Positions 12,646 through 59,446 of a DNA stretch of 64,000 bases are shown here, one piece after another; the first letter of the stretch is position 1, and the number at the start of each line of letters is the position of its first letter. The position numbers were made by a program, and so were the translations under genes. The notes beneath the pieces are model-generated. The model saw nothing but the letters and a program-made list of their open reading frames with translations, had not been told where the DNA came from and did no database searches. This DNA comes from an uncultured Acidimicrobiales bacterium (GTDB lineage Bacteria; Actinomycetota; Acidimicrobiia; Acidimicrobiales; SHLQ01): positions 36,147-100,146 of the forward strand of contig CALHTB010000039.1 of NCBI GenBank assembly GCA_938038785.1. The letters are read 5' to 3'.

Positions 12646-12650
12646 CCAAA

Positions 12651-12765
12651 AGATTTGTACACAGTTTCAGACCGCCACGGTGGGCAAATCCTGTACAAAT
12701 CCTCCGGTGAAGATTTGTACACAGTTTCAGACCGCCACGGTGGGTAAACCGTGTACAAATCTTTG
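12651..12765. repeat. Two tandem 60-bp units, each an imperfect hairpin (AGATTTGTACAC...GTGTACAAATCT)
   Basis: AGATTTGTACACAGTTTCAGACCGCCACGGTGGG at 12651 and again at 12711; copy 2 arms 12710-12722 / 12751-12763 pair perfectly. Confidence 0.93.
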
Positions 12766-26611: not shown

Positions 26612-27283
26612 GTGGATCCAACCAGTTCAGGCGACTCCCAGTACTTCGAGAGCACGCCGACAGTGGCGTCCAAGCGTCAGCAAATCGAACTCGTCCTTCC
26701 CGACGTCTATCTCGAACTCACCACAGATACCGGAGTGTTTTCTGCCAGCCAGGTCGACAAAGGCACCCGCTACCTCCTCAAAGACATGCCTCCGTACGAA
26801 TCTGTGGAGTCTGATGACCGAATATCGAACACCAGACTCCACAGATCTGTAGCGATTCTGGATTTGGGGTGCGGGTATGGGCCGATTGCGCTCACGATGG
26901 CCAAGCGCGTGCCGGAGGCGCACGTGTGGGGTGTCGATGTAAACGAGCGGGCGCTCGACCTCGCGCGAGAGAACGCTGCGACTAACGGTGTTGCCGAGAA
27001 CACGACGTTTGGCCTGAGCGACGACATCGACCCCGAGCAACGGTTCGACCTCATTGTGTCGAACCCGCCCATCCGCATCGGAAAGGCTGCGCTTCACCAG
27101 CTGCTCACAAACTGGCTCGACCGCCTGACACCTACCGGGCGGGCGTTATTGGTCGTCCAAAAGCACCTGGGTAGTGACTCGCTCGCCGAGTGGATGACCG
27201 CAAACGGTTGGGCCGCGACCCGACTCGGTTCACGCAAGGGTTTCCGTATCCTCGAAGTGCTCGCCCGTCAGGAGACGACATGA
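26612..27283 (+). CDS. RsmC-like class I SAM-dependent methyltransferase carrying an in-frame palindromic repeat
   Basis: LDLGCGYGPIALTMAKR, SNPPIRIGK; residues ESVESDDRISNTRLHR are the translation of a repeat also found at 45568 and 46636. Confidence 0.85.
   Translation: MDPTSSGDSQYFESTPTVASKRQQIELVLPDVYLELTTDTGVFSASQVDKGTRYLLKDMPPYESVESDDRISNTRLHRSVAILDLGCGYGPIALTMAKRVPEAHVWGVDVNERALDLARENAATNGVAENTTFGLSDDIDPEQRFDLIVSNPPIRIGKAALHQLLTNWLDRLTPTGRALLVVQKHLGSDSLAEWMTANGWAATRLGSRKGFRILEVLARQETT
26797..26849. repeat. Dispersed palindromic element family 1, copy 1 (inside rsmC-like CDS)
   Basis: Arms ATCTGTGGAGTCTG 26800-26813 / CAGACTCCACAGAT 26833-26846; 19-nt loop is the reverse complement of the copy 3 loop. 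Confidence 0.93.
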
Positions 27284-38150: not shown

Positions 38151-38247
38151 GTCGAGCGGCAGACTCGACAAGGACAAGAGCTCTCGGGGAGCGAAGCTCG
38201 CGTAGCGACCAAGCCGGCTACCGCGGATGTCGAGCGGCCGTCTCGAC
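38151..38247. repeat. Composite repeat family 2, copy A (carB-pyrD intergenic), two hairpins
   Basis: GTCGAG-CGGCAGA-CTCGAC 38151-38169; GGGGAGCGAAGCTCGCGTAGCGACCAAG 38187-38213 region; GTCGAG-CGGCCGT-CTCGAC 38229-38247. Confidence 0.9.
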
Positions 38248-45567: not shown

Positions 45568-45620
45568 CGAATCTGTGGAGTCTGCTGTTCGATATTGCGT
45601 CACCAGACTCCACAGATTCG
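45568..45620. repeat. Dispersed palindromic element family 1, copy 2 (pyrR-phzF divergent intergenic)
   Basis: Perfect 17-bp arms CGAATCTGTGGAGTCTG 45568-45584 / CAGACTCCACAGATTCG 45604-45620; loop CTGTTCGATATTGCGTCAC. Confidence 0.97.
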
Positions 45621-45648
45621 CGGTAGTGCGTGTCGGGTAGGTTGAGGT

Positions 45649-46632
45649 ATGCCCAACTTTTCTCAGGTCGATGTGTTCACCGCTACCCCGCTTCTCGGGA
45701 ATGCTCTTGCCGTTGTGCACGATGGCTCAGGTCTCACCGATGCGCAGATGCAGCAGCTCGCAAATTGGACCAACCTGAGCGAGACGACGTTCTTGCTGCC
45801 GCCAACCGACCCCACTGCCGACTACCGAGTGCGGATCTTCACGCCGGGTAGTGAGCTGCCATTCGCGGGCCATCCGACCATCGGCACATGTCACGCATGG
45901 CTCGAAGCCGGTGGCACGCCAAAGGCCGACGGGGTCATCGTTCAAGAATGCGGAGTTGGCCTCGTGCCGCTTCGTCAATCTGGGGGCCGGCTTGCGTTTG
46001 CTGCACCTGCGCTAATTCGGGGCGGCCCGGTCTCTGAAGAAGACCTTGAACCGGTGTGCGCTGTGCTGCAGGTCGACCGATCCGAGATTGTCGATGCGCA
46101 ATGGGCCGACAACGGGCCGGGTTGGATTGCGGTAATGCTCAAGGACGCCGATGCGGTACTTGAGATCGTGCCCGACTTCAGCGCAGCCGAAAGCTACGAC
46201 ATCGGCGTCGCTGGCAAGTACCCCGTAGGCGTCGTTGGACTGTCGAACACTCCAACATCGCAATCAGAAAGCGCTATCCAGCGAGATGTCTCGAACGATT
46301 CAACATCGCATTCAGAAAGCGCCATCGGGGAGCGAAGCTCGCGTAGCGACCAAGTAGGCGAAGTGGGGATCTCGACCGGAAGTGTCGAGAAAGTCGAAGT
46401 TCGGGCGTTCTTTCGTGCGGGTGGGGTGGCTGCCGAGGATCCAGTTACTGGCTCACTCAACGCAGCACTGGCGCAATGGCTTCTTGGCAACGGCACGCTT
46501 ACCGCTCCGTACATTGCACGCCAAGGCACGGCGATGGGTCGGGCAGGCAAGGTCTTCATCGAGGAAGCCGATGGCGAAATCTGGGTCGGTGGCGATGCCG
46601 TCACCGTCGTCTCAGGCTCTGTCAATCTCTAA
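45649..46632 (+). CDS. PhzF family isomerase-like protein with a repeat-derived internal insertion
   Basis: FSQVDVFTATPLLGNALAVV, SELPFAGHPTIGT, AEDPVTGSLNAALAQWL; segment SNTPTSQ...GSVEK corresponds to repeat DNA. Confidence 0.88.
   Translation: MPNFSQVDVFTATPLLGNALAVVHDGSGLTDAQMQQLANWTNLSETTFLLPPTDPTADYRVRIFTPGSELPFAGHPTIGTCHAWLEAGGTPKADGVIVQECGVGLVPLRQSGGRLAFAAPALIRGGPVSEEDLEPVCAVLQVDRSEIVDAQWADNGPGWIAVMLKDADAVLEIVPDFSAAESYDIGVAGKYPVGVVGLSNTPTSQSESAIQRDVSNDSTSHSESAIGERSSRSDQVGEVGISTGSVEKVEVRAFFRAGGVAAEDPVTGSLNAALAQWLLGNGTLTAPYIARQGTAMGRAGKVFIEEADGEIWVGGDAVTVVSGSVNL
46243..46389. repeat. Composite repeat family 2, copy B, plus two 48-bp in-frame tandem units, inside phzF-like CDS
   Basis: TCGAACACTCCAACATCGCAATCAGAAAGCGCTATC (46243) / TCGAACGATTCAACATCGCATTCAGAAAGCGCCATC (46291); GGGGAGCGAAGCTCGCGTAGCGACCAAG; CTCGAC-CGGAAGT-GTCGAG 46371-46389. 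Confidence 0.92.
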
Positions 46633-46635
46633 TTT

Positions 46636-46688
46636 CGAATCTGTGGAGTCTGGTGTTCGATATTCGGTCATCAGACTCCACAGATTCG
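46636..46688. repeat. Dispersed palindromic element family 1, copy 3 (between convergent phzF and GNAT genes)
   Basis: Perfect 17-bp arms 46636-46652 / 46672-46688; loop GTGTTCGATATTCGGTCAT. Confidence 0.97.
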
Positions 46689-46691
46689 TAG

Positions 46692-59382: not shown

Positions 59383-59444
59383 GGGGAACGGAGCTCGCGT
59401 AGTGACCATGTCGACCTCCGCGGATCTCGGGCGGAAGTCCCGAG
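59383..59444. repeat. Composite repeat family 2, copy C (alaS upstream)
   Basis: GGGGAACGGAGCTCGCGTAGTGACCATG 59383-59410; CTCGGG-CGGAAGT-CCCGAG 59426-59444. Confidence 0.85.
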
Positions 59445-59446
59445 AA

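Follow-up and report, generated by a model that had tools for sequence, protein, structure and literature searches.

The 53-bp palindrome that recurs in the 64,000-nucleotide stretch of Acidimicrobiales DNA analysed here (the window) is probably a REP-like, non-autonomous mobile hairpin, and its probable enzyme is the nuclease with an AbiEi-type domain that is encoded at the sucD locus; we give this reading a probability of about two in three. The genome contains many copies of the element, with the hairpin conserved, the element lies in frame within genes whose relatives lack it, and hairpins of the same family flank the nuclease gene. In-frame REPs are already known; the association of a palindrome with an AbiEi-nuclease partner appears to be new.

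Palindromes in frame within two conserved genes

Homologues of the rsmC-like gene of the window (Table 1) were present in 59 of the 60 genomes searched. The initial annotation had reported that the palindrome seen at two intergenic positions also lies inside this gene, where the frame is intact and the encoded peptide directly precedes the SAM-binding motif, and this was borne out. The copy within the gene (CGA-ATCTGTGGAGTCTG...CAGACTCCACAGAT-CTG) is, in inverted orientation, identical at 52 of 52 bases to positions 46639-46690, the reading frame is open throughout, and the palindrome is translated as ESVESDDRISNTRLHRS immediately ahead of VAILDLGCGYGP. The further statement that the copy at 46636 is free of stop codons in five of its six frames was also correct. 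All three copies match the pattern ATCTGTGGA-N29-TCCACAGAT exactly, and with three mismatches allowed there were still only three matches in the window, against an expectation of 0.02 from dinucleotide shuffles.

Table 1. Positions in the window of the palindromes and of the gene that contains one of them
Feature	Position	Strand	Context or evidence
Third-family palindrome doublet (GATTTGTACAC...), units 60 bp apart	12650..12761		immediately follows the leuS stop codon
RsmC-like class I SAM methyltransferase CDS	26612..27283	+	223 aa; Pfam MTS, E 1e-32
In-frame palindrome in the methyltransferase gene	26797..26849 (core 26800-26846)	+	pattern match; absence from 21 relatives
Intergenic family-A palindrome	45568..45620		28 bp upstream of phzF
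Intergenic family-A palindrome	46636..46688		both convergent genes end 3 bp away

The annotation had proposed that the palindrome is mobile, a proposal against which homologues carrying the same peptide without the palindrome would have counted. The ESVESDDRISNTRLHRS peptide was found in none of the aligned rsmC relatives (0/21), and the linker was shorter in all of them: it reads PPIASDVTSVLDLG or an equivalent in most, PAIGSLPTPPTSVLDLG in the nearest relative (G006, 83% identical) and PPYESVESDDRISNTRLHRSVAILDLG in the source genome (G000; 3.67 Mb in 134 contigs, 73% complete). The net gain, +39 nt compared with most relatives and +30 nt compared with G006, is smaller than the 53-bp element, so that the addition of the palindrome to rsmC was not clean, 14 to 23 nt of the linker having been lost or rewritten. 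An assembly error was considered as the source of the insert; the position of the rsmC copy on a 100-kb contig and the existence of a second in-frame copy make it less likely.

That second copy lies in a phosphoglucomutase/phosphomannomutase gene (pgm, G000:C107) in whose product all four PGM domains are recognised, and it supports the proposal of a palindrome that is mobile in frame. It has the same orientation and frame as the rsmC copy, reads ISESVESDDRISTTRLHRSGISIAY, and was absent from all 15 aligned relatives, where the loops are different and mostly shorter. The peptides of the in-frame inserts in the two products include ESVESDDRISNTR and ESVESDDRISTTR. Both inserts sit in loops of variable length, as would be expected if the insertions now seen are the survivors of selection. 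Judged from the alignments, rsmC and pgm are conserved genes that have each received an in-frame insertion lacking in their homologues. The pgm gene of G005 (L162) carries, in the same loop, an insert of equal length and unrelated sequence, TESIGTRRVRVEDGQARNG.

A hairpin of fixed length

The element, here called family A, has an invariant core of 47 bp; the length of 53 bp given initially holds when the CGA/TCG ends are included. It folds as an imperfect stem of 20-21 bp closed by a 3-nt loop; the tips (TCTGTGGA/TCCACAGA) are conserved and the interior covaries. Its length is fixed: when 20 to 45 bases were permitted between CTGTGGA and TCCACAG, nearly all matches in the genus had exactly 29. 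The hairpin structure is conserved while its sequence varies. In a sample of 50 hairpins from three species (G001, G003 and G007), with the positions dictated by the search pattern left out, the 14 inner pairs were 69.9% paired compared with 30-41% when the partner was slid by 1-3 columns, and their covariation was 0.314 compared with 0.182 after shuffling, a value reached by none of 500 shuffles. Some copies are extended by CTACGA on the 5' side, mirrored by TCGTAG on the 3' side. Family A occurs singly in G000; hairpin doublets are frequent in G007, with a spacing of exactly 60 bp.

Insertion footprints could be read from the few sites that are empty in G006 and occupied by intergenic copies in G000. 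The local sequence was rewritten around the position of the hairpin, as at L007, where GAACTACGA-hairpin-TTTGTGTTAGCCGAC corresponds to GGAACTAACCGAC in the empty site, and L074 showed a possible duplication of 7-14 bp (CATGATG..CTCC). No consistent target-site duplication was seen at rsmC, pgm and these few intergenic sites.

Copies mostly adjoin gene ends and are confined to the genus

A mobile element should also be present elsewhere in the genome, and a search of G000 identified about 18 distinct copies, 2 in coding sequence (rsmC and pgm) and 16 outside it. When genes were called simply by codon usage, 14 of the 16 non-coding copies had a gene 3' end at most 14 bp away, often those of both convergent genes at 3-5 bp. 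At one stop codon G006 (L373, G006:C12) has a hairpin (TTTCTGCCCC...GGGGCAGA) that is about as long as the family-A hairpin present there in G000 (L006, G000:C22) but unrelated to it, as though successive hairpin families were drawn to gene ends.

Such positions, and the exchange of one hairpin for another at the same stop codon, are also what might be expected of transcription terminators or of 3' hairpins that protect mRNA, in which case the AbiEi-nuclease gene described below would simply have one on each side. However, the stem is not followed by a T-run in the flanks of the G000 copies, so that the GC-rich stem plus T-run of an intrinsic terminator is not what is found, and two copies lie in mid-gene, in frame. 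Near-identity over ~50 bp also exceeds what a terminator needs, and neither the matched left and right families of individual genes nor doublets of exactly 60 bp are expected of generic terminators. We consider this explanation unlikely and place it below that of a mobile REP-like hairpin.

Copies related to the palindrome were found in the congeners G001, G006, G008 and G010 (E <= 0.001); the search also covered 55 other relatives and, at the same threshold, found no copy in them. When 398 genomes of the phylum were scanned for CTGTGGAG...CTCCACAG, only three genomes besides G000 matched. The reversed control gave at least as many matches, and the exact form is therefore a genus-level one. 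Beyond the genus the exact pattern yielded only scattered singletons or unrelated repeats, with none in Rickettsia; we attribute matches in Paenibacillus, Planctomycetaceae, Gammaproteobacteria and Azospirillum to chance or to another repeat. Near-matches adjoining stop codons were seen in Mycobacterium, Mycolicibacterium and Nitriliruptoraceae. Contigs of the last (L107, 1015-1254, and L122) have several nearby CTGTGGAG-N27-CTCCACAG hairpins, and one of them (L122) also has a distant AbiEi-nuclease homologue. Rfam gave zero matches in the window.

The hairpins flank a gene for a candidate nuclease

The gene associated with the hairpins, and the wider family to which it belongs, lie beyond what the window alone shows. 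In several genomes pairs of hairpins ~1.0 kb apart enclose the same gene, encoding an AbiEi-nuclease, and hairpins of the same family flank AbiEi-nuclease genes in G000, G001, G003, G008 and G010. The product, of ~300 aa, combines an N-terminal AbiEi-type winged helix with a C-terminal Vsr/EDxHD-like (PD-(D/E)XK) nuclease: among 32 members, AbiEi_4 was matched in 30, REase_MTES_1575 in 31 and DUF559 in 19, and PADLOC models also name the N-terminal half AbiEi. Residues D232, E243 and D259 are invariant. An AlphaFold model built from three sequences was good only in the C-terminal half, the N-terminal half being unreliable, and its best nuclease fold match was the EDxHD homing endonuclease I-Bth0305I (3r3p; probability 1.00, TM 0.73-0.75 by target length), at modest E-values of 0.007 and 0.012. 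The protein is thus predicted to have a Vsr/EDxHD-like fold with conserved acidic active-site residues.

In eight genomes of the genus this gene adjoins sucD on its 3' side. It looks vertically inherited and so does not behave like a jumping gene itself; G006 lacks it at the sucD site, where another gene is found instead. Matches to TCTGTGS-N27-33-SCACAGA numbered 8-37 in the eight genomes that have the gene at sucD, the G000 count taking in a second, TCTGTGGT family that adjoins another paralogue, and 4 in G006, which lacks the gene at that site. There were 5 in G004, whose contig ends near the site, and 9 in G009, in which sucD was not found, and the reversed control gave 0 in all genus genomes. 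The family-A nuclease copy at sucD in G000 has an apparent frameshift near codon 69; the hairpin copies of that genome are still near-identical.

The palindromes might instead be moved by a RAYT-type tyrosine transposase encoded elsewhere in the genome, the AbiEi-nuclease being a neighbouring toxin-antitoxin or defence gene, as the PADLOC assignment of its N-terminal half would allow. REP-like size, preference for gene ends and doublets all fit RAYT-REPIN systems (PMC3733652, PMC8049555). However, the gene that is flanked by matching palindromes is that of the AbiEi-nuclease, and this holds for many paralogues, each of which has a family of its own; moreover, the GTAG tag of RAYT-REPs is unpaired at one end, whereas CTACGA...TCGTAG is here an extension of the palindrome in some copies only. 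We regard dispersal by a RAYT as quite unlikely.

AbiEi proteins are known to bind their own promoters at inverted repeats, and the AbiEi-nuclease gene has one hairpin upstream and another downstream. The flanking palindromes could on this basis be operators of a solitary AbiEi-like regulator that were spread by gene conversion or recombination, with no dedicated enzyme. An operator does not account for the downstream copy or for dozens of solo copies far from any AbiEi-nuclease gene, the nuclease residues are conserved, and the coding loops that received insertions show no homology to the ends of the element. This explanation seems to us improbable, and we favour a mobile hairpin with the AbiEi-nuclease as its enzyme.

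The PhzF-family gene of the window (45649-46632) also has family-A palindromes on either side, ~1.07 kb apart (45568-46688). This is nearly the spacing seen around the AbiEi-nuclease genes, to which the PhzF gene is unrelated.

Other AbiEi-nuclease genes and their hairpin families

Homologues of the AbiEi-nuclease were present in 68 of 148 relatives at E <= 1e-20, often several per genome. The left flank of each Acidimicrobiales locus was compared with its right flank, with rsmC and pgm loci from these genomes as controls; the resulting counts are not fully independent because one locus was entered twice (L174/L202) and some are orthologues, and with this proviso 74 of 88 loci scored above the best of 45 control genes. 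None of the controls (0/45) exceeded the threshold, which was reached by 11 of 261 pairings of left and right flanks taken from different loci. When 87 loci were each compared with 20 dinucleotide shuffles of their own sequence, 72 scored higher than every shuffle, and 48 of 73 matched flank segments were more palindromic than all 50 shuffles. The matching repeats are usually each gene's own family, with different hairpins beside different paralogues. Thus, a second family adjoins the G000:C31 paralogue and has solo copies in G000, G006, G008 and G010, and the third-family doublet of the window matches the flanks of another AbiEi-nuclease gene of the genome (L208, G000:C64) with 81-83% identity over 111-113 bp.

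In the class of G082, which we read as Actinomycetes, 235 of 297 genomes had homologues (E <= 1e-15). The flank test was weaker there (14/30, compared with 10/109 shuffled pairs), and clear palindromes were seen at L308, L311, L316, L321, L324 and L328. At L308, L311 and L320, in other actinobacteria, the AbiEi-nuclease loci have flank repeats of the GGTGTAGTTAGTGGCG... type that might represent a dispersed family.

As an association, the pairing of hairpin family and AbiEi-nuclease is strong. We lean, by somewhat better than even odds, towards the broader view that AbiEi-EDxHD/Vsr-like fusions, which are common across Actinomycetota, are dedicated mobilisers of a large unrecognised class of REP/REPIN-like elements, each with its own hairpin family. 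No link between DUF559, MTES_1575 or AbiEi and palindromic repeats was found in a literature search that had bioRxiv and most subscription papers outside its scope.

Comparison with known systems

The initial annotation had likened the element to the Rickettsia palindromic elements (RPEs). The analogy is fair for the effect, both being palindromes that lie in frame in unrelated protein genes and are open in several frames. However, RPEs are ~150 bp long and nearly half of the 44 in R. conorii are within genes (PMC10969869), whereas the family-A element is 53 bp, has 2 of 18 copies in genes, flanks a candidate enzyme gene and has a different sequence in an actinobacterial host; it is not itself an RPE.

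Structurally the better comparison is with REP/REPIN elements, for which in-frame copies in many species and a preference for gene ends are documented, and among which the CGTC-tagged REPs, including RPE-4 and RPE-6 of R. conorii, have no known transposase (PMC3733652). Like REP/REPIN-RAYT systems (REPtrons), the present one consists of short dispersed hairpins, mostly at gene ends and in singlets and doublets, together with an enzyme gene that is vertically inherited and flanked by its own repeats, with several families per genome; the doublets, the vertical inheritance, the several families and the lower copy number where the gene is missing all have their parallel there (PMC8049555, PMC8266576). 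Unlike RAYT, which is a Y1/HuH tyrosine transposase, the flanked gene encodes an AbiEi winged helix and a Vsr/EDxHD-like nuclease; the unpaired 5' GTAG tag is missing, and each hairpin is a fixed stem-loop of 43-47 bp.

I-Bth0305I, a dimer with a target of nearly 60 bp (PMC3943268), and other Vsr-like nucleases share with the AbiEi-nuclease the predicted C-terminal fold and acidic residues of catalytic type, but the AbiEi-nuclease has in addition an N-terminal AbiEi domain, flanking palindromes and dispersed non-autonomous copies, and is associated with no intron or intein. MITEs are likewise short, non-autonomous inverted-repeat DNA adjoining genes and can form in-frame fusions; the family-A element, by contrast, is one whole hairpin, and we found neither a target-site duplication of fixed length nor an association with a DDE transposase. 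With the AbiEi antitoxin of type IV toxin-antitoxin systems there is homology in the N-terminal domain, which is here fused to a nuclease.

A possible mechanism

We propose that the AbiEi domain would recognise its cognate palindrome, that the nuclease would then nick or cut, and that host repair or replication would copy the hairpin into a new site, an insertion rewriting from a few to about 20 bp locally. The hairpin would in this way be scattered mainly beside gene ends, and the two G000 copies that landed in tolerant protein loops in a stop-free frame would have stayed there, presumably in proteins that remain stable. If this is so, there would be a second enzymatic route to REP dispersal, independent of RAYT, which also writes short peptides into proteins and might account for the short in-frame inserts that some proteins have gained. 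The nuclease family has so far been known only as AbiEi, DUF559 or MTES_1575, and its own palindromes flank it in many genomes; very common actinobacterial genes now called 'antitoxin-like' or 'unknown' would be reassigned. A single purified protein and one oligonucleotide would be enough to test the question.

A further interspersed repeat

Another interspersed repeat (GGGGAGCGAAGCTCGCGTAGCGACC...), about 60-72 bp long, is present in the window at 38176-38246, 46317-46388 and 59383-59446, the copies being 76-79% alike. G006 has additional copies, among them a 72-bp tandem array (L354). The copy at 46317 lies in frame within the PhzF-like gene, in a stretch reading NTPTSQSESAIQRDVSNDSTSHSESAIGERSS that itself has an internal repeat.
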